Assembly: GCA_002070115.1 (NCBI GenBank)
Contig: MWCO01000053.1
Coordinates: forward strand, 1-45,144
DNA from: Deltaproteobacteria bacterium ADurb.Bin207
GTDB lineage: Bacteria; Myxococcota_A; Polyangia; Polyangiales; Polyangiaceae
DNA length: 45,144 bases
Direction of reading: 5' to 3'
Part shown: positions 1,998 to 45,144 of the stretch, one piece after another
Layout of the letters: every line of letters starts with the position of its first letter
Position numbering within the stretch: the first letter of the stretch is position 1
Made by a program: the position numbers and the translations under genes
The notes under the pieces: generated by a model
Databases searched by the model: none
Told to the model about the DNA's origin: nothing
What the model saw: only the letters and a program-made list of their open reading frames with translations

Positions 1998-3374
1998 TTA
2001 CTTCTGCAAGCTCTTGTTTCTCGCCAGGGAAGCCATGACCCCCAGGATACAGAGAACGAGAAAAATCACGAAGCCGGTTTTCATCGAATTCATGAATAGC
2101 GCGTAATTGCTGGGTTGGATTGACTCCCGTCCCATATACAGAGCAAGAAGCAGCAATGCGATGGCCATGCTCGAAGTTTGACCCACGTTTCTCATGGTTC
2201 CGAGCATCCCCGAAGCATTGCCAAGTTGTCTTTTTTCCACCGAACTCATGATAGCGTTGGAATTGGGAGAGGAAAAAAGGGCAAAACCAATGCCCATGAT
2301 GGCTAGTGTCCCCACGATGAGCGCCACCGACGTTCGTTCGGAAATGAACGCCAGCACGACCAACCCCATCGAGGTGAGCCCCATGCCCAAAGATGCCAAA
2401 ACCCCAGGATTATAGCGGTCAGACAACTTGCCCGCGGAAGACGAAAGCAAAGCCATCATGATGGGAGAGGCCATGAGCACGAATCCCGCATCGCGTGCGC
2501 CAAGTCCTTTCATATATTGCAGATAAAGGCTCAAAAAGAAAGCCACGGCGCTGGTCGCTGCATAATGGATCAGAGCCGCCATGCTCGAAAACGCAAAGAC
2601 CCGGTTATGGGAAAGCAAACTCATGTCGAAAAGCGGATAGGAAGCCTTTTTCTCGCGCCAGAGGAATAACGGCACCAGCACCGCGCCCACCGCGATGAGG
2701 ACCTTGCCCTGTATCGTAAAAATCACGGAAACCCCGTACATCAACGAAGCAATCGAAAGACCATATAAGATAGCTCCCAGCCAATCGAAACGCTCCCCTT
2801 TTGCCTCCGCCCATTCTTGTTTGACTTTGGTCTGTAGCAGAATCCAGCTCACGATCCCCAACGGAACCAGGACCGCAAATATGCTTCTCCACCCCAAATA
2901 CCGAGTAAGGACGCCCCCCAGAAACGGTCCCGAGGCAAGTCCCGTATACACCGCCGTCACGTTGATTCCCATGGCCTTGCCCCGCTCCCCCGGAGGAAAT
3001 ACGGACGTCAGGATTGCCATGTTGGTCCCGAACATCATCGCCCCTCCGATGCCCTGCACAATTCGTGCTCCAATGAGCCATGCGAAATGGGTCGATAAGG
3101 TGAGCGCCACCATCGATAGCGTGAAAATCATCACCCCGATGGAAAACACTTTTCTACGCCCGAGAATATCCCCGGCCCGACCCGCGGGAAGAAGAAAAAT
3201 CGAGGTCGTCAGCATGTAGCTGCTGATCACCCAATTGAGACTCACCGCGTTGAGGTGGAAATCTTCACTGATGGCCGGAAGCGCCAGGTTGACCGCAGAC
3301 CCCATGAAAGGAGTCAGAAACGACGCAAAAATCGTGACCCATAACACCGAGCGCTTGAGTTGGGTTTCTGTCAT
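1998..3374 (-). CDS. MFS drug-exporter-type transporter (DHA2 family)
   Basis: A 458-residue polytopic membrane protein from the ATG at 3374 (MTETQLKRSVLW). The frame stays open to a GTG at 3449, but the extra 25 residues are Arg-rich and do not look like an MFS N-terminus. Motif A appears as GRAGDILGRRKVF between helices 2 and 3, and ARIVQGIGGAMMFGTN fits helix 4. The antiporter motif C region reads AVYTGLASGPFLGG. Length and the count of hydrophobic segments (about 12-14) fit the EmrB/QacA-like proton-coupled exporters. The substrate is unknown. It stands 311 bp downstream of the rfb operon on the same strand and is probably transcribed separately. Confidence 0.88.
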   Translation of the reverse strand: MTETQLKRSVLWVTIFASFLTPFMGSAVNLALPAISEDFHLNAVSLNWVISSYMLTTSIFLLPAGRAGDILGRRKVFSIGVMIFTLSMVALTLSTHFAWLIGARIVQGIGGAMMFGTNMAILTSVFPPGERGKAMGINVTAVYTGLASGPFLGGVLTRYLGWRSIFAVLVPLGIVSWILLQTKVKQEWAEAKGERFDWLGAILYGLSIASLMYGVSVIFTIQGKVLIAVGAVLVPLFLWREKKASYPLFDMSLLSHNRVFAFSSMAALIHYAATSAVAFFLSLYLQYMKGLGARDAGFVLMASPIMMALLSSSAGKLSDRYNPGVLASLGMGLTSMGLVVLAFISERTSVALIVGTLAIMGIGFALFSSPNSNAIMSSVEKRQLGNASGMLGTMRNVGQTSSMAIALLLLALYMGRESIQPSNYALFMNSMKTGFVIFLVLCILGVMASLARNKSLQK

Positions 3375-3685
3375 CCGCTGCTGTCCTATTCCTTGCCCGC
3401 AAACCCTATTCCTCCCCAGCAAAAGCCGCACGGAGAAAAATGCAGACACGAACCATCTTTCTGCACGACGAACCCCACGACCAGTGCCTCTATCGTAGAA
3501 AATTCATAATATCCCTCCCAAAGCCCCAGTTTTTTCGTCGACGCTGAGCCGTATGGTCATCTAATACCGGAATTTTCGTTGATACCGATCCTATGATTCG
3601 TTTTCCATTCCCGCATCCCCCGGGTTGCGCCTGGCACCGGCTCCGCTTCCTACAACCCAACCCCTAACCACTTATATTACCACCT
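3375..3685. other. Intergenic leader of the MFS gene
   Basis: 311 bp between the end of rfbH and the MFS start. It contains a five-codon frame MNFLR-stop on the minus strand at 3490-3507, preceded by a strong ribosome-binding sequence (GGGAGGG, 5-6 nt before its ATG). I saw no clear hairpin-plus-T-tract terminator for the rfb operon, and no other gene. Confidence 0.5.
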
Positions 3686-5068
3686 TCAGCGCCGCTGGGC
3701 CTGCTCCACCGCCTCGATTACCGTCTTAGCCTGCGTTTCCATCATTTGATCGTCGAGCCCCGGATACACCCCCACGAAAAATCCCCCCGCGAGAACGTGA
3801 TCGGAAACCGGCAAAAGCCCCACCTTGCGATGCTCCACATGGCGATAAGCCGGATGCCGCAGCAAATTTCCCGCGAAAATCCGACGATGCCCCACTCGTT
3901 TCGCATCGAGTATCGCACAAATCCTGTGCAAAACCTCATGATCCGGCTGTTGCAACACCATCGCCAATCCGAACCAGCTCGGATCGGCCCCCGGCGTGGC
4001 CTGCACGAAATTCACCCTACCTTCGAGCGGTGAAAGCAACTGCCGCAGTCGAGCCCAATTACGGCGACGTGCCGCGCCAAATTCACCGAGCTTGCGAAGT
4101 TGAACCCTCCCAATAGCCGCCTGAATGTCCGTCGGCTTCAGGTTGTAGCCAAGATGCCGGTATACGTACTTATGGTCGTAGCCCGCGGGCAAATCATCCC
4201 ATTCCCACGCAAAGCGTTTGCCGCAGGTATTGTCGCGACCGCAAGCGCACCAGCAATCGCGTCCCCAATCCCGAAAACTCTCGGCAATTTTCGCCAGATG
4301 AAGGTCGTGGGTATAGACAGCCCCCCCCTCCCCCGCCGTGATATGATGCGCGGGATAAAAACTCGATGTACCAAAATTCCCAAAGGTTCCGGTTAGTTGG
4401 CCTCGATACCGGCTCCCCAGCGCGTCGCAATTATCCTCGATGAGAACCAGATCATAGGCCCGACAAAACGAGAGCACCGCATCGAGATCGAAAGGATTTC
4501 CAAGGGTATGGGCCAATAGAACCGCGCGTGTCCGCTCACTGCGCGCCGCCTCGAGCTGCGTCACATCCACCCCAAGCGTCGTCATATCCACATCGACGAA
4601 TACCGGGATGCACCCCGCCTGCACGATGGGATTGACCGTGGTGGGAAATCCACAGGCCACCGTGATGACTTCATCGCCTTTGCGCAGAGGACGATCCAAC
4701 TGCTCGCTGGTCAGAGACATCAGCGCGATGAGATTGGCGCTCGAACCGGAATTGACCATCAACGCGCGCTTGACTCCAAGATATTCCGCCAATTCCCGTT
4801 CAAAAGCTTGCCCCTCCGGGCCGAGGGTAAGCCAAAAATCGAGCGACGCCTGGACCGCCGCCTGCACCTCACGCTCGTCATATACCCGGCCCGCATAAGG
4901 AATCGAGGTGATGCCAGGCTTGAAGGGCCGACGTTTCCCAAGGCGTCGTCGAATCAATTCCCCCGTCAACCTCAGGATTTTATGCTCCAATGCAGCATCA
5001 TCTTCCGGAATCTCGTCCATCGCGCTCGCCCCGGCATCCTTTTGCCATTCCTTGGTGGAATCACTCAC
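3686..5068 (-). CDS. rfbH: CDP-4-keto-6-deoxy-D-glucose 3-dehydrase (E1)
   Basis: A PLP- and [2Fe-2S]-dependent dehydrase of the DegT/AHBA fold that removes the C3 hydroxyl of CDP-4-keto-6-deoxyglucose on the route to 3,6-dideoxyhexoses. In SFYPAHHITAGEGGAV the usual PLP lysine is replaced by His, the hallmark of E1 dehydrases. The stretch CWCACGRDNTCGKRF supplies the four cysteines expected for the iron-sulfur cluster, followed by GYDHKYVYRHLGYNLKPTDI. The length of 460 aa is slightly above the usual ~437. I chose the GTG at 5068 because GGAGG lies 6 nt upstream; it overlaps the rfbG stop by 8 bp, so translation is probably coupled. The electron-transfer partner (RfbI/E3) is not in this window. 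Confidence 0.93.
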   Translation of the reverse strand: MSDSTKEWQKDAGASAMDEIPEDDAALEHKILRLTGELIRRRLGKRRPFKPGITSIPYAGRVYDEREVQAAVQASLDFWLTLGPEGQAFERELAEYLGVKRALMVNSGSSANLIALMSLTSEQLDRPLRKGDEVITVACGFPTTVNPIVQAGCIPVFVDVDMTTLGVDVTQLEAARSERTRAVLLAHTLGNPFDLDAVLSFCRAYDLVLIEDNCDALGSRYRGQLTGTFGNFGTSSFYPAHHITAGEGGAVYTHDLHLAKIAESFRDWGRDCWCACGRDNTCGKRFAWEWDDLPAGYDHKYVYRHLGYNLKPTDIQAAIGRVQLRKLGEFGAARRRNWARLRQLLSPLEGRVNFVQATPGADPSWFGLAMVLQQPDHEVLHRICAILDAKRVGHRRIFAGNLLRHPAYRHVEHRKVGLLPVSDHVLAGGFFVGVYPGLDDQMMETQAKTVIEAVEQAQRR

Positions 5069-39121: not shown

Positions 39122-40255
39122 TCAGCCACGCGGCATCGCGGTTCCTTGTGGCCCCATGGGAGCCACGCGTCCCTCAATCATCGCACGCAATTCGTCCTGA
39201 TCCGAAGATCGACCCATCGCCTCCTCCAACGAAATGAGGCGACGCACATACAGCGAATACAGGGATTGGTTGAGCGTTTGCATGCCGTGTTTTTCCTGCC
39301 CCACCTGCAATTGCGAGTAGATTTGATGAATCTTGTCCTCACGAATGAGGTTTCGGATCGCGGGGTTCGGCACCATGACCTCGAGAGCAAGGACACGACC
39401 AGGGCCACTCGCCCTGGGCAACAGCAATTGTGTGACTACCCCCTGAAGAACGAACGACAACTGCGCGCGAACGCGTGATTGTTGATGGGACGGAAACACG
39501 TCGATGACGCGGTTGATGGCCTGCACGCAAGAGTTGGTATGCAGCGTGGCAAACACGAGGTGCCCGGTTTCCGCAATCGTCAACGCCGATTCGATGGTTT
39601 CGAGGTCGCGCATTTCGCCAATGAGAACGACATCGGGATCCTGTCGCAGAATATATTTCAGAGCATCTTTGAAGTTGACCGTATCGGTTCCAATCTCACG
39701 CTGATTGACTACGGACAGCTTATGGGGATGAAGATATTCGATCGGGTCTTCGACCGTGATGATGTGCTGACGGGTCTCGCTGTTGATCTTGTCGATGATG
39801 GAAGCAAGCGTCGTTGACTTCCCAGAGCCGGTGGGCCCGGTGATGAGGACGAGGCCCCGCGGTTTCGCGGACAACTCGGCAATGACCGGAGGAAGACCAA
39901 GTTCCTCGAAGGTCAGAATTTTGAATGGGATCGATCGAAAAGCGCCGGCGACAGCTCCCCGCTGCATGAAGATGTTGGCCCGAAAGCGTGAAAGGCCGCG
40001 AACACCGAAAGACAAATCCGTCTCGTTGCGTTTCTCGAACGATACTTTCTGTTCTTCCGTAAGAACCGAATAACAAAGCTGCTTCGTTTCCACGGGAGAT
40101 AACGCGGGAAGTTTGAGCGGAACGATCGCGCCATCAATCCGTAATAGCGGCGGAGACCCGGTGGTAATGTGCATGTCACTCGCGCCTTTCTCAATCATGG
40201 CGCGAAGCAGTTGATGCAGATTGACCTTCAAACCCTCAGGTGACCCCGTCGACAT
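39122..40255 (-). CDS. pilT: Type IV pilus retraction ATPase
   Basis: 377 aa hexameric AAA-type secretion ATPase that depolymerises type IV pili, powering twitching motility. N-terminal PAS-like domain (EKGASDMHITTGSPPLLRID). Walker A ITGPTGSGKSTTL (residues 139-150), Asp box VEDPIEYLH, Walker B VVLIGEMRDLETIE, His box FATLHTNS. AIRNLIREDKIHQIYS is the PilT-specific C-terminal motif that separates it from PilB. ATG at 40255 with AAGGGA 8 nt upstream, 33 bp after pilB. Probably co-transcribed. Confidence 0.95.
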   Translation of the reverse strand: MSTGSPEGLKVNLHQLLRAMIEKGASDMHITTGSPPLLRIDGAIVPLKLPALSPVETKQLCYSVLTEEQKVSFEKRNETDLSFGVRGLSRFRANIFMQRGAVAGAFRSIPFKILTFEELGLPPVIAELSAKPRGLVLITGPTGSGKSTTLASIIDKINSETRQHIITVEDPIEYLHPHKLSVVNQREIGTDTVNFKDALKYILRQDPDVVLIGEMRDLETIESALTIAETGHLVFATLHTNSCVQAINRVIDVFPSHQQSRVRAQLSFVLQGVVTQLLLPRASGPGRVLALEVMVPNPAIRNLIREDKIHQIYSQLQVGQEKHGMQTLNQSLYSLYVRRLISLEEAMGRSSDQDELRAMIEGRVAPMGPQGTAMPRG

Positions 40256-40288: not shown

Positions 40289-41992
40289 TCAATCGGCCAT
40301 CGTGACGCGAAGGACTTCTTCCGGCGTCGTTACGCCTTGCGCGATTTTGAGGTTGCCGGCAGCACGCAAGGATATCATCCCGTTTTTGATAGCCGCCACC
40401 TTGAGTTCCGCCGTCGAAGCCCCCTGAAGCACCATTTCCCGTAGGTTTTCGGTCATTCTCATGACTTCGTACAAGGCCACACGCCCCTTGTACCCGGTGT
40501 TGTTACAGGTACGACAGCCAGCCCCTTTCATGATCGTGGCATTCTCCATCAGCTCATCGGAAAAACCAAGCTCTTCGAATACCTTTCGATCCAACACGGA
40601 CGCGGTCGCGCAATCCTTGCAAACACGACGAGCAAGACGTTGTGCCAACACCAAGTTCACACTCGCCGTGATGAGAAAAGGCTCCACACCCATGTTGAGC
40701 ATACGAGAAATGGTCGACGGAGCATCATTGGTGTGAAGCGTCGACAGAACCATGTGACCCGTCAACGCTGCCTTGACAGCAATTTCAGCGGTTTCAAAGT
40801 CGCGGATCTCGCCAACCATGATGATGTCCGGATCTTGCCGAAGAAACGATCGCAGCGACATTGCGAAATTCAAGCCGATTTCCTCATGCATCTGCACCTG
40901 GTTGATCCCCGGAAGGTTGTATTCCACCGGGTCTTCCGCCGTGCTGATATTCACCCCATCCTTGTTGAGATCGGAAAGCGCGGAATACAATGTTGTCGTC
41001 TTGCCAGACCCCGTCGGCCCCGTCACCAACACCATGCCCCAGGGTTGATTGATGGCCCATTGAAAATCCCCTAGCGGCTTCGGATCGAACCCAAGCTTGG
41101 TCATGTCGAGTTGCAAGTTCGACTTGTCCAAAAGACGCAAAACCACTTTCTCTCCCCACATCGTGGGAAGCACCGACACGCGGAAGTCCATCTCCTTGCC
41201 CTTGCCAAGCTTCAGCTTGATCCGCCCGTCCTGCGGAAGCCTTCTCTCGGCAATATCCAGCGAACTCATGATCTTCAACCGGCTGACCAACGCCGCCCGT
41301 AACTTCAACGGCGGCGTCATCTCCTGCATCAAGACTCCGTCCACGCGATACCGAATGCGAAGCGTTTTCTCGTAAGGCTCGACATGAATATCGCTCGCCC
41401 CCTTCTTGATGGCGGACAGCAAAATCATATTCACCAGACGCACGACCGGAGCATCTTCACTGGCCTTTTCAAGCTCCAATACGTTTATCTCTTCGTTGTC
41501 CTCTCCAAAGTCGATCTCCCCTTCATCAAAGTCCGCCATCACATCGTCGTACGAGGGTCCGACGTTGTAATAACGCTCGATGGCCGCCATGATCGCGGAC
41601 TCCGCACATACGACTGGCTCGATATTCAAGTTCGTCAGAAACTTGATATCGTCGATCGCATGTAAATTCGTGGGGTCGGACATGGCCACAATCAGCGAAA
41701 CACCCGCCCGCGACAACGGAAGTAGCTTGTGCTTCTCCGCGACATCCTGCGGCACCAGCTTCAACACTTCCGCATCGACTTCGTATTCATCAAGGTTGAC
41801 CGCCGGAACACGATACTGCGCCGACAAAAAACTCGTCATCTCGCGGTCGGATACATATCCAAGCTTCGCAAGAGCATAACCAAGGTTCTGCCCCGTCCTG
41901 CGCTGCTCGTCTTGCGCTTGCCGGAGTTGCTGCAAACTGATCAACTTCTCACGAACGAGAAGCTCTCCCAACCGAGTCGGATTTGGTGCCAT
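40289..41992 (-). CDS. pilB: Type IV pilus assembly ATPase
   Basis: 567 aa from the ATG at 41992, with GGAG upstream; the frame is open to 42097. Drives pilus extension from the inner membrane. N-terminal MshEN-like domain (LGELLVREKLISLQQL, RVPAVNLDEYEVD), then GASDIHVEPYEKTLRIRYRV, Walker A VTGPTGSGKTTTLY, Asp box AEDPVEYNLPGI, Walker B IIMVGEIRDFET and His box LSTLHTNDAPST. Four cysteines in VCKDC and GCRTCNNTG form the PilB zinc-binding tetra-Cys site. Together with pilT it indicates type IV pilus motility, as in gliding myxobacteria (S-motility). PilC and pilins are not in the window. Confidence 0.95.
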   Translation of the reverse strand: MAPNPTRLGELLVREKLISLQQLRQAQDEQRRTGQNLGYALAKLGYVSDREMTSFLSAQYRVPAVNLDEYEVDAEVLKLVPQDVAEKHKLLPLSRAGVSLIVAMSDPTNLHAIDDIKFLTNLNIEPVVCAESAIMAAIERYYNVGPSYDDVMADFDEGEIDFGEDNEEINVLELEKASEDAPVVRLVNMILLSAIKKGASDIHVEPYEKTLRIRYRVDGVLMQEMTPPLKLRAALVSRLKIMSSLDIAERRLPQDGRIKLKLGKGKEMDFRVSVLPTMWGEKVVLRLLDKSNLQLDMTKLGFDPKPLGDFQWAINQPWGMVLVTGPTGSGKTTTLYSALSDLNKDGVNISTAEDPVEYNLPGINQVQMHEEIGLNFAMSLRSFLRQDPDIIMVGEIRDFETAEIAVKAALTGHMVLSTLHTNDAPSTISRMLNMGVEPFLITASVNLVLAQRLARRVCKDCATASVLDRKVFEELGFSDELMENATIMKGAGCRTCNNTGYKGRVALYEVMRMTENLREMVLQGASTAELKVAAIKNGMISLRAAGNLKIAQGVTTPEEVLRVTMAD

Positions 41993-42186
41993 GTCACTCC
42001 ATGAAGTCCAGAAACACTGTCCTGCCGTCTGCTCTGACTCGCTGACCATACAGCCCAAGAGCCACCGGTGCCATGCCCTCGTGGCAGGAATTGCCAAAGT
42101 CGATGACGCCTACATCTTACCCACACCTCACCGTCGCGATGGTTATGCCCCTTGGCTCCCCGCCCTAACCTTGCAATGCTAGCCCC

Positions 42187-43350
42187 ATGGGTCTGCTGAG
42201 CCGTCTCGTCCACCGCCTTACCCACAACACCGTCGAGGACCAGGGGTCTCGATTCGAAGCACAAGGACGGCTCGAAGAAGCCTATGAAGCCTACGTTTCT
42301 TCCGGACAACTCGAACAGGCCATCCGTGTTTTGCTCGTCCGCGCCGACTCCGAACTGGACCTGCAAAAACGACTCGCCTTGCTGCAAGTCGCCGTCTCTC
42401 GCACCGCCGCCGACTCCCCCTTCGGTCGCGAAACCCGCCAACGCGCCGCCTCCTTGCGTCTCGATTTGGCCAAAAATTCCAAGGGTTCCATGTTACAAAC
42501 GGAACTTCTGGCGCTGGCAGAACTGCTCGAAAGCCTGGATATGAAACGGGAAGCCGCCGACGCCTTCGGTCTCCTCGGCGATTCCGATAACCAATCTCGC
42601 CTTCTGGCCGGCTGCGGCGCCATCGATGCCCTCGAATCCTTGCTCGAAAACCAGCAAGAACAGCGAAACCAACAACGTCAGCGGGAAGATCTCTGGAAAG
42701 AGATCCATCGCCTCGAGGCCATCGGTCAACGCATAGCTTGCCTGAAGCTCGCCCAACAATGGCTCGAATCACACCCCGAAGACGAACCGATCGCTGCTTT
42801 TTCGCGAGCCGTCAACGCCCGATTGATTCGCTCCAACGGCATTTCGCTGCGGGTCAATGACGAAGTCCTTCACATCGTCACCGACCACCCGCTGACCCTT
42901 GGCCGCGCCGACTGCTCCATCGATATTCCTTCTCCAGCCCTCAGTCGACAGCATCTCCAAGTGCGCCGCGCGCAAGAACAACTCATCGTCGAAGACCTCG
43001 GAAGCCGAAACGGCACATGGCTCGCCGGAGTCCGGTTGGATGGCCCATTGCCCATCGGAAATGGCATCGATTTGCTTCTCGGCGGTCAAGTCCCCCTTCA
43101 TATCGAACCCTGGAATCAAGGTGTCTCCCTGCGTTTCGCCAACCAACACATCGTTGCACCTCTCGGACCTCTGCTCATTGCCGACTTCACCCTCTGTCGA
43201 AGCGACACCGGGTGCATGCAACTGCATGGCCAGACGAACACCCCGATCCTCAACGATTTATCCGCGGAAAAATGCATCGATCTGGCAATCGGTGACAAGA
43301 TCAAATCCCTTCGATCCGGCCCTGTCCTGCTGGAGGTCATCGCATCGTGA
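42187..43350 (+). CDS. FHA-domain protein with helical N-terminus
   Basis: 387 aa. Residues 1-210 are helical and repeat-like (EAYEAYVSSGQLEQAIRVLL, then KREAADAFGLLGDSDNQSRL), suggesting TPR/HEAT-type scaffolding. The FHA domain at about 220-305 has LGRADCSIDIPS (238-249), ALSRQHLQV (SRxH) and DLGSRNGTWLAG (GSRNGT at 272-277), all key phosphothreonine-binding positions. The last 80 residues are another beta-rich stretch (VAPLGPLLIADFTLCRS, then DLAIGDKIKSLRSG) that may be a second, degenerate FHA-like domain. Its TGA overlaps the GTG of the kinase, a strong sign that the two act together. Divergent from pilB, about 195 bp apart. Confidence 0.85.
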   Translation: MGLLSRLVHRLTHNTVEDQGSRFEAQGRLEEAYEAYVSSGQLEQAIRVLLVRADSELDLQKRLALLQVAVSRTAADSPFGRETRQRAASLRLDLAKNSKGSMLQTELLALAELLESLDMKREAADAFGLLGDSDNQSRLLAGCGAIDALESLLENQQEQRNQQRQREDLWKEIHRLEAIGQRIACLKLAQQWLESHPEDEPIAAFSRAVNARLIRSNGISLRVNDEVLHIVTDHPLTLGRADCSIDIPSPALSRQHLQVRRAQEQLIVEDLGSRNGTWLAGVRLDGPLPIGNGIDLLLGGQVPLHIEPWNQGVSLRFANQHIVAPLGPLLIADFTLCRSDTGCMQLHGQTNTPILNDLSAEKCIDLAIGDKIKSLRSGPVLLEVIAS

Positions 43351-44564
43351 GCCTCTGGTCCAAACTGTTCCGACGTTCCAACGTCGATTCCTCAGACAGC
43401 CCTTTGCCGACCTCTCATCCACCGGCCCACAAATCTCCTCCGCCTTCGGACAATGATGAAATCGCCTTATTGTCACGTTTCGGCACCGAAGACGGCCCCG
43501 ACGAAGCGACCGCGGACCGTTTGCTCCACATCGCCCTGACTACCCCACGACAACAGAAAGCCATTGATGCCATCGCTCATGCCATGATGCATCATGAGGT
43601 CCCCGAACGCTTGCGCTTGGTTTGCGCCCACACGTTGGTCCAACGAGGAGAGATTCCCCGAGCGCTTCTGTTCCTCGATTCCGTATCACAAACTCCTTCG
43701 CTCATGCTCAAAGCGGACTTGCTTCACGACCAAGGCAATGTCGCTTCCGCCCTTTCCATCATCGAACGCGTGCTCGCACGCGATCTCGACACCCCTGGCG
43801 CTCGAGAACGACACCGACGGTGGCGCGCCCAACTCGCTCCTCATCTCCCCATTTCCCAAGACTCTCGCGACGTCACGGTCGCAGTCCCCAACGCACAACA
43901 GTCCCCTTATCGAATCGTGCGCGAAATAGCCAGAGGAGGCGCGGGTACAGTTTACGAAGCGCGAGATGATATCCTACAACGCAGTCTTGCCCTCAAGGTC
44001 TATCACCAATCTTCGGATCAGGAACAGCTCCAACGGGAAGCACAGATCGCAATCCAACTCGCTGGCGAAGGTATCATCCGCATCTTCGATATCGACTTGA
44101 ACGGCGGCTGGATTGCCTTGGAATGGCTGCCTCGAGGCTCCGTTCGTGAAGCCATTCGCCGAGCCCACATCGATGCGCTCGGTGAACCATCATCGTTCAT
44201 TCACAAACTGGCGCTCACCCTGTCCCACGTGCATGAGCGTGGCTGGGTCCACGCCGACCTGAAACCCGGCAACATTCTGCTCGATGCTTCGGCGGCACCC
44301 ATCCTCAGCGACTTTGGCATCGCAGTTCGATGCGGTGAACCCAACCGCGGCGGCAGCACCGGATATCTATCCCCTGAACGACTGGCTGGCGCACCTGTCG
44401 AGCCTTCCGACGACATTTATGCGCTGGGTCGAATCCTGGAGGATATCATTCGCACGGAGCACCATGCGTGGTCCCCCTGGCTTTCCCTGGCGGAACACTG
44501 CATGACCGAACGGTCTACGAGACCGCGCAACGGCCAGGCTCTCCTCGCTTTGCTCCGCCCATAG
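43347..44564 (+). CDS. Ser/Thr protein kinase, TPR-like N-terminus, non-RD
   Basis: 405 aa. GTG start overlaps the FHA stop. Residues ~40-165 are TPR-like helices (ALLFLDSVSQTPSLMLKADL). The kinase domain spans ~188-400: IVREIARGGAGTVYEARD (glycine loop), LALKVYH (K217), QREAQIAI (E231), WVHADLKPGNILLD (catalytic Asp304 with Ala303 in place of the usual Arg of HRD), SDFGIAV (D322FG) and YLSPERLAG. All catalytic residues are present, but the HAD version is a non-RD kinase, so activation-loop regulation may differ. No transmembrane helix. Pairs with the FHA protein as a likely kinase-receptor module; a link to pili is only positional. Confidence 0.88.
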   Translation: MSLWSKLFRRSNVDSSDSPLPTSHPPAHKSPPPSDNDEIALLSRFGTEDGPDEATADRLLHIALTTPRQQKAIDAIAHAMMHHEVPERLRLVCAHTLVQRGEIPRALLFLDSVSQTPSLMLKADLLHDQGNVASALSIIERVLARDLDTPGARERHRRWRAQLAPHLPISQDSRDVTVAVPNAQQSPYRIVREIARGGAGTVYEARDDILQRSLALKVYHQSSDQEQLQREAQIAIQLAGEGIIRIFDIDLNGGWIALEWLPRGSVREAIRRAHIDALGEPSSFIHKLALTLSHVHERGWVHADLKPGNILLDASAAPILSDFGIAVRCGEPNRGGSTGYLSPERLAGAPVEPSDDIYALGRILEDIIRTEHHAWSPWLSLAEHCMTERSTRPRNGQALLALLRP

Positions 44565-44566
44565 CA

Positions 44567-45115
44567 TCAGGCCGAACCGAGATCCTTCTTTCGATTCGTC
44601 ACCAATAACACCATCGCAGGCATCACCACCAACGTCAACGACGTGGATGTACCATTGCCCCCATTGACCACTACCGCCACCGGCTTCCGAATATTCTCGC
44701 CTGATCCCGAGGCGTACAACATCGGAACGTGAGCGATGAAAGTCGTCAATGCGGTCATCAACAATAGTCGAAAGCGAAGGTTGCATCCCTTTCGAACCGC
44801 TTGCGTCAAAGCCATACCACCATTTCGCAATTGAGCAATAAATACCCTCAATACCATGCCGTTTTGCACTGCAATCTTAAGCAATACCATGAAGGGGATG
44901 GCCGCCGACACCGACAATGGCATCCCAAATATCACAATCGTCAATACCTCTGGCAGATCCCTTCGTTTTTTCCTGAATTGGAAAGGGACACGAGCTGAGA
45001 ACTCTTGGGTGCGGGCGAGACGCCCGCGGTCCCAGCGATAAAGGAGTCCCAGCGATACCGAGGTGCGGGCACCATGGGGGCGTCCTTTAACGTATACATT
45101 GTCGCTTTCGCGCAA
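44567..45115 (-). pseudogene. C-terminal remnant of a CzcA/CusA-type RND efflux pump
   Basis: 182 codons in one frame. From about 44970 leftwards they match the last membrane helices of heavy-metal RND pumps: EVLTIVIFGMPLSVSAAIPF, then AVQNGMVLRVFIAQLRNGG, a RLLLMTALTTFIAHVPMLYA stretch and SGSGENIRKPVAVVVNGG, ending VVMPAMVLLVTNRKK. Many family positions are altered (for example HVPMLYAS where PMALATG-like is expected). The first ~45 residues (to 45115) match nothing, and a palindromic repeat lies there. The rest of the ~1000-aa pump is not present before the window ends. A decayed or truncated gene is the best explanation. Confidence 0.65.
45007..45072. repeat. GC-rich palindromic repeat element
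   Basis: GCGGGCG (45011-45017), loop AGA, CGCCCGC (45021-45027) is a perfect seven-base stem. TCCCAGCGATA occurs twice (about 45030 and 45047), and GGTGCGGGC reappears near 45062. This is the layout of small dispersed REP-like palindromes. It interrupts or abuts the RND remnant. Confidence 0.6.
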
Positions 45116-45144
45116 CTGCCTGCGGTGTACGCCCAGGCCGCGAT

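Follow-up and report, generated by a model that had tools for sequence, protein, structure and literature searches.

What does a Hanks-type kinase, encoded together with a forkhead-associated (FHA) protein, do next to the genes for the ATPases of the type IV pilus? The question is raised by a stretch of 45,144 nucleotides from Deltaproteobacteria bacterium ADurb.Bin207 (contig MWCO01000053.1, order Polyangiales; hereafter the window), in which the two genes stand divergent to pilB. Our analysis leads us to regard the FHA protein and the kinase as a cognate signalling module whose likeliest client in this order is pilus extension, a reading to which we assign a probability of about 0.45. It builds on the co-inheritance of the genes, a complete catalytic set in the kinase, an FHA phosphothreonine pocket, matching N-termini, a conserved linker threonine and adjacency to pilB. 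On our best reading the module is probably tethered to the membrane, tied to pili in the order of the window, and not limited to pili.

Inheritance of the two genes and their place beside pilB

Orthologues were collected by searching the FHA protein in 59 genomes, that of the window included, which gave 34 fetched neighbourhoods, and by scanning 282 genomes of the phylum with an FHA profile, which gave 42 matches (E ≤ 1e-25), 39 of them in the class of the window. The FHA gene, the kinase gene and pilB were sought in 97 relatives at thresholds of E ≤ 1e-25, 1e-50 and 1e-160, and were present in 62, 62 and 90 genomes, respectively. FHA and kinase genes occurred together in 61 genomes, neither was found in 34 and each occurred singly in one, an agreement of 95/97. 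Such joint inheritance is what would be expected of cognate kinase-FHA pairs of the PknH-EmbR or PpkA-Fha type. The two exceptions are an FHA fragment at a contig start (G331; genomes are numbered with G, loci with L and families with f) and a genome with the kinase only (G340). Both genes are also kept where they lie on different contigs (G041, G135, G023) or 2.7-4.8 kb apart (L050, L115, L116), which points to partnership rather than to mere operon inertia. The coupling of the two genes claimed in a preliminary description of the locus is thereby borne out. In the window the open reading frames share the four bases GTGA, the FHA gene preceding a kinase with a HAD catalytic loop, exactly as that description had it, and the overlap of -4 recurs in 31 of 55 orthologous loci (both genes on the same strand).

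By comparison of coordinates in the 97 relatives, the pair adjoins pilB in 48 of the 58 genomes that hold both the FHA gene and pilB, the linkage to pil genes expected of a type IV pilus regulator; for eight of the 48 (G318, G320, G323, G328, G329, G331, G335, G341), and also for G319, adjacency comes from coordinates alone. It spans six families of the order (f1, f3, f5, f6, f7, f9) and holds down to FHA-protein identities of about 25%. Four of the ten non-adjacent genomes are cut by a contig end (G023, G034, G330, G054), four belong to f8 (G043, G050, G333, G336), and the other two (G324, G317) have the genes on different contigs. Among the 48 fetched loci of the order 41 have pilB, divergent to the pair in 40 and in tandem in one. 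The divergent spacing has a median of 144 bp and a range of -5 to 657 bp, where the value of -5 bp (L117) stems from a doubtful FHA start. In the tandem locus (L112, outside the 97) pilB, FHA gene and kinase gene make up a run that has a gap of some 15 bp. The seven loci without pilB lie at a contig edge (L057, L058, L073), belong to f8 (L056, L059) or come from genomes without a PilB orthologue (L051, L072). The divergent position described for the window is thus usual in the order, within which the pair is not scattered relative to the pil genes.

As a background, the commonest gene family besides FHA, kinase, pilB and pilT genes was found in 15 of 46 loci (proteins of ≥150 aa, antisense reading frames aside). 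It is a ThiF-rhodanese gene, in many of the 15 loci behind the kinase gene (e.g. L062:10475-11707), which we take to be MoeB/MoeZ-like. Titles and abstract openings in the literature revealed no FHA/kinase pair adjoining pilB. In the suborder Sorangiineae the pil genes are dispersed through the genome, as outlined in PMC6060248, the main text of which does not mention FHA. Because of this scatter an accessory neighbour kept at pilB in many families is notable.

Layout of the two proteins

The features of the locus in the window are as follows.

42187..43350, plus strand: FHA protein gene, 387 aa, with helical repeats, FHA domain and C-terminal beta domain (open reading frame, Pfam, AlphaFold2)
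42187..42222, plus strand: basic amphipathic N-terminal segment of the FHA protein, MGLLSRLVHRLT (orthologue conservation, profile test)
42226..42825, plus strand: helical-repeat region of the FHA protein, about residues 14-213 (AlphaFold2 helices; weak tetratricopeptide-repeat (TPR) fold alignment)
42895..43083, plus strand: FHA domain, residues 237-299 (Pfam, orthologue alignment)
43120..43344, plus strand: C-terminal beta domain of the FHA protein, residues 312-386 (AlphaFold2 strands; HH comparison)
43347..43350, plus strand: GTGA overlap of stop and start codons, 4 bp (open reading frames)
43347..44564, plus strand: kinase gene, 405 aa, with N-terminal helix, helical region, linker and Hanks-type kinase domain (open reading frame, Pfam, AlphaFold2)
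43347..43376, plus strand: basic amphipathic N-terminal segment of the kinase, MSLWSKLFRR (conservation, profile test)
43875..43877, plus strand: Thr177 codon in the disordered linker, candidate site of autophosphorylation and FHA docking (alignment, pLDDT)
43902..44561, plus strand: kinase domain, residues 186-405, with short activation segment (Pfam, alignment, structure alignment)
44250..44258, plus strand: HAD of the catalytic loop, residues 302-304, non-RD (sequence, alignment)
41993..42186, no strand: intergenic region of 194 bp between the divergent pilB and FHA genes (coordinates)
40289..41992, minus strand: pilB, extension ATPase of the type IVa pilus (TIGR02538)
39122..40255, minus strand: pilT, retraction ATPase of the type IVa pilus (TIGR01420)

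Both pil products are true type IVa pilus ATPases by their family models, with 792 bits for PilB (TIGR02538, cut-off 675.65) and 486 bits for PilT (TIGR01420, cut-off 319.1). Directly behind the kinase gene a C-terminal fragment of an AcrB/ACR_tran-type transporter lies on the minus strand (44567-45142), where the contig ends.

Four alignments were used. A1 holds the window and 29 of the first 34 loci (not L057, L058, L062, L072, L073), and A2 the window and, from 29 loci with a kinase, the 26 that remain without L051, L060 and L066. With later loci added, A3 has 52 rows (not L117, L123, L125, L129, L130, nor the five left out of A1) and A4 has 47 rows (not L060, L066, L110, L117, L123, L125, L127, L129, L130); the loci left out of A3 and A4 were partial or doubtful. 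L131-L133 are second locus copies and were not counted.

The FHA domain is recognized by Pfam at residues 237-299 (E 1.6e-13), and FHA folds align with the protein model at Z up to 11.7 (6ccd, 82 residues, rmsd 2.3). The phosphothreonine pocket of the window protein has the GR, SRxH and NG motifs in full, as in phosphothreonine-binding FHA domains. Pocket residues G239, R240, S253, R254, H256, G276 and T277 occur in 52/52 aligned orthologues and N275 in 45/52. The AlphaFold2 model (mean pLDDT 95) is all-helical in the N-terminal half and beta-rich in the C-terminal half, and its structure-alignment table covers mainly residues 11-160 and 227-311. Pfam TPR matches were negligible; the TPR fold of Pins (4a1s_B) aligns over residues 15-153 at Z about 11.7, an alignment that is weak because this Z is within the usual range for helical repeats. 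In an HH comparison the C-terminal domain matched the protein's own FHA part with a probability of 61% (E 8e-5), and residues 312-386 are perhaps a degenerate second FHA-like domain. The Pfam scan of the FHA protein and the kinase gave no DNA-binding domain above cut-off of the kind that an EmbR-like protein would be expected to have; AbiEi_3_N in the FHA protein (E 0.0029, 18 bits against a cut-off of 26) was rejected as such a domain. A scan of genome contigs with the FHA protein gave one Gemmataceae locus, with similarity confined to residues 237-299. For both proteins NCBIfam returned only matches below cut-off, and neither Pfam, NCBIfam nor PADLOC gave a model specific to this family. A defence system was rejected as a reading, since the PADLOC matches (best 25 of 33) cover the kinase domain only and none concerns the FHA protein.

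The AlphaFold2 model of the kinase (mean pLDDT 90) begins with a short helix, followed by a helical region (about residues 35-165) for which Pfam TPR matches stayed below cut-off, a disordered linker and a kinase fold. Pfam Pkinase matches residues 188-370 (E 5.4e-26) and stops at model position 193 of 263. The modelled domain has the bilobal kinase fold and aligns with PknB (5u94) at Z 24.6 over 218 residues (rmsd 2.5), and its C-lobe looks reduced, as only two helices (373-385, 396-403) follow the long helix 353-369. The Hanks-type catalytic residues K217, E231, D304, N309 and D322 are invariant in 47 aligned kinases. The catalytic loop, VHADLKPGN in the window, is non-RD in 33 of these (HAD 17, HGD 7, HLD 6, and HHD, HND and HQD once each) and HRD in 14. 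An activation segment of exactly 24 residues was found in 29/33 non-RD orthologues and in 0/14 HRD orthologues, which have 25-34 residues (Fisher p 9e-9, uncorrected for relatedness). In one lineage, then, the activation segment is shortened where the HRD arginine is lost. With HAD and a 24-residue segment, the window kinase does not have the features of an RD kinase that is switched by activation-loop phosphorylation. HRD and non-RD orthologues both adjoin pilB (e.g. L040, L065). The HAD loop pointed out in the preliminary description is present, then, but is no mark of pilus function, because pilB-adjoining orthologues in other families are HRD. One in-frame stop occurs in five orthologous kinase matches (G135, G004, G265, the second piece of G058, and G317); in G004 the FHA match is split in two within a single frame. 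Among 21 other kinases of the window genome, a pattern search found 16 HRD, two non-RD (HCD, HGD) and three without a match, one of which (L165) is HRD by eye. This genome (G000, 6.5 Mb) has a very large Hanks-kinase complement: searched with the kinase, it gave 132 matches (E ≤ 0.001).

Both proteins begin with a similar basic segment, and the recurring patterns are MSFWRRLFRR in the kinase and MSFFRRLFD in the FHA protein. An FHA N-terminal profile of 51 sequences scored a median of 11.7 bits on 32 kinase N-termini, against a background 95th percentile of 2.0. In reverse, the kinase profile gave a median of 6.7 on the 51 FHA proteins against 2.1. The medians were reached by 0/322 and 3/322 other genes of the same loci, which were scored with the best possible start in the first 50 codons; the likeness noted in the preliminary description is therefore beyond chance. 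Above the background 95th percentile were 78% and 76% of the targets, about a quarter being below. For the kinases of the window and 31 loci the -4 overlap fixed the start, and 11 FHA rows were dropped; the FHA side of the test is biased because the start-choice rule favours hydrophobic and basic residues, and Ser2 of the kinase is partly imposed by the overlap. The hydrophobic moment of residues 2-11 averages 0.51 in both families (50 and 47 rows) versus 0.33-0.34 in random internal 10-mers (sd 0.17-0.18), and the net charges are +1.1 and +2.2. The motif is missing in four of the 32 kinases (L117, L120, L125, L126) and lies three residues later in L119. The kinase start region of G019 (L051) is also without the amphipathic motif, a single locus that may be due to chance. 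Membrane binding is the natural reading of these segments, and they may also dock to a common partner. The further proposal of a common origin of the two TPR-like parts found no support: the profile-profile comparison gave a probability of 1.8% for the parts alone and 34% at full length, and the two helical regions showed no homology.

Position 177 of the kinase is a threonine in 39/39 rows of the window's order and in 1/8 rows outside it (40/47 in all). T177 aside, no linker column between 165 and 187 is above 30/47. Residues 170-178 have pLDDT under 50, and this disorder makes structural packing a less likely cause of the conservation. Many FHA domains read the +3 position, which is variable here. 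No shared motif like that of T177 was seen by eye ahead of the kinase domain in the 21 other kinases of the same genome. The FHA domain could plausibly dock at T177.

Loss of the pair and retention without PilB

Several results weigh against a dedicated tie to pili. Presence of the pair does not follow that of pilB (58 genomes with both, 4 with FHA only, 32 with pilB only and 3 with neither among the 97; Fisher p 0.70). Four genomes (G019, G332, G004, G299) keep the FHA and kinase genes with no PilB orthologue and only weak PilM-family matches; as G019 and G332 are single-contig, the pair does not occur only where a pilus exists. Mapped on a tree built from 61 pilB sequences, the pair switches between present and absent at least 10 times, and strong branches force 7 of these switches; the tree is quick and midpoint-drawn and cannot alone tell gain from loss. 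In six of 19 pair-less loci (L178, L180, L182, L184, L185, L196) a ThiF-rhodanese gene, identified by Pfam for four and by BLAST for all six, stands divergent to pilB. A PilB phosphosite that tracks the pair was rejected, as no Ser/Thr exceeds 80% in the 41 linked sequences and stays below 40% in the 19 pair-less ones. The 13 loci outside the order (L118-L130) have no pilB in the fetched stretch. Finally, T177 is unconserved outside the order in the alignment, where all seven exceptions lie; by eye, two outside rows (L119, L121) have a similar ATI/ETI at a shifted position. Since the pair is retained without PilB and lost with pilB kept, type IV pili do not need it and it is not restricted to them.

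PilM was searched in twelve genomes, seven of which gave matches at E 1.7e-66 or better. G035, which is 77% complete and has no pilB, has a strong PilM match; G037, the twelfth genome, has neither the pair nor PilB. The 20 pilB loci fetched came from 19 pair-less genomes and one f8 genome, and none of the 20 had a kinase-profile match near pilB. In the six loci with a ThiF-rhodanese gene the pair is missing as a whole and its flanks are intact, a clean excision. The only FHA-profile match near pilB in a pair-less genome (L192:5104-6138, E 2e-18) was rejected as a relic, being a different protein that has two FHA domains but lacks a helical part; it has a hydrophobic stretch at its end and lies about 2 kb from pilB. 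In L190, L191, L192 and L195, also pair-less, an HGSNAT-like membrane acyltransferase gene adjoins pilB in the divergent position.

All 13 loci outside the order have a kinase neighbour, nine above the 150-bit orthologue line and four below it (L123, L126, L129, L130). No pilus gene was seen among the scanned neighbour proteins of these loci (14 of the 20 proteins scanned; the other six were from L056, L059, L131 or L133 or had no match). In L119, L120, L126 and L129 (f13, f16) the pair is followed by a protein of 1421-1629 aa with a kinase-profile match, which in L119 has kinase, nucleotide-cyclase, AAA and TPR domains. In L124, outside the class, a neighbour of the pair (2712-4271) carries an fvmX7 'FtsH ternary system' domain.

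Client of the module and comparison with known systems

These results also bear on a general signalling role, for instance in stress or cell-cycle output, in which the link with pilB would reflect a shared divergent regulatory region or an inherited neighbourhood and no functional tie. This explanation has a chance that we put somewhat short of even. It would account for the pair in the four genomes without a PilB orthologue or strong PilM match, for its repeated loss where pilB is kept, for its being unlinked to pilB in other orders and in f8, and for the six pair-less loci with ThiF-rhodanese next to pilB, where the block can simply have closed up. Adjacency to pilB, however, outlives most of the surrounding gene order and survives both a change of strand (L112) and the departure of the kinase gene (L050, L115, L116); this speaks for a tie of some kind between the FHA gene and pilB. 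Between a pilus client and a general role the odds are near even, and the figures behind our gradings are not mutually exclusive and do not add up to one. Of the role in pili put forward in the preliminary description, the linkage to pilB has stood and control is still possible; the pair is nevertheless dispensable with pilB kept and retained in genomes without PilB.

For a cognate module with pilus extension as its client in the order, the following mechanism can be envisaged. The N-terminal segments would hold both proteins at the inner membrane. Having lost the HRD arginine and shortened its activation segment, the kinase would not depend on activation-loop phosphorylation and would be gated otherwise, by its helical region, by dimerisation or by the FHA partner. 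It would autophosphorylate Thr177, the FHA domain would read the phosphothreonine so that a complex forms, and the helical regions of both proteins would bring in the client. In the order this would most likely be type IV pilus extension, through PilB recruitment or expression; pilB adjacency alone makes the pilus the best candidate. As the module is present in genomes without the tested pilus genes, it must have other or older clients. A narrower version, in which a threonine phosphorylation switch licenses pilus extension in the order, a membrane-tethered kinase that is independent of its activation loop marks its own Thr177, and the FHA partner reads the mark at the base of the pilus and recruits or releases PilB, is tentative and in our view rather doubtful.

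In kind the pair resembles PknH-EmbR and the ArnA/ArnB/ArnC/ArnD system. PknH-EmbR of Mycobacterium tuberculosis likewise consists of a kinase and a helical-repeat/FHA partner, which PknH phosphorylates. In EmbR a DNA-binding domain is present and the FHA domain is C-terminal, and PknH is a transmembrane receptor kinase; unlike EmbR, the FHA protein studied here has no DNA-binding domain above cut-off and carries a beta domain after the FHA domain. Foldseek matches of the FHA protein, when ranked by E-value, have EmbR at the top (2fez, E 5.6e-6, TM 0.17). PpkA-Fha1, which serves threonine phosphorylation in type VI secretion, is similar as a kinase with a cognate FHA protein in the locus of a machine; the kinase PpkA, though, is a receptor in the membrane, and type VI secretion is a different machine. 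Myxococcus xanthus is placed in a different class of the phylum from the window. Its accessory regulators MglA, SgmX, FrzS and SopA, one of them a TPR protein, bring PilB to the pilus base, as outlined in PMC11580455; these proteins differ from the pair, and the word kinase is absent from the main text of that paper. In Sulfolobus, as outlined in PMC5300886, the FHA protein ArnA and its partner ArnB act with the Hanks-type kinases ArnC and ArnD on a pilus-like machine, the archaellum; in sequence, they were compared with our pair at the level of the FHA fold only.

That the pair controls pilB/pilT expression, the FHA protein serving, like EmbR or ArnA, as a repressor or anti-activator that depends on phosphorylation and the motor remaining untouched, seems unlikely. 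The short divergent spacing (median 144 bp), the top Foldseek rank of EmbR by E-value, the close FHA domain of ArnA and the part played by ArnA/ArnB and kinases in archaellum expression (as outlined in PMC5300886) would fit it. On the other hand, neither protein has a DNA-binding domain above cut-off, the EmbR superposition is poor over the length (TM 0.17), and the match rests on the FHA domain (2ff4_B, residues 227-308, Z 11.3). A catalytically dead or nearly dead kinase in a scaffolding pair is very improbable: the non-RD loop and the truncated Pfam match (model position 193 of 263) would agree with it, but non-RD kinases are commonly active, the catalytic residues are invariant in the 47 orthologues and the fold aligns with PknB (5u94, Z 24.6).

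To our knowledge the partners of such Hanks kinases are rarely known. In the present kinase family the partner is built in, a phosphosite is predicted and the genomic setting hints strongly at a machine, which makes one chain of kinase, partner and target directly testable. The position of the pair beside pilB suggests a possible way of switching type IV pili by phosphorylation. If true, this would be a route of pilus control separate from c-di-GMP and from the MglA/SgmX pathway.

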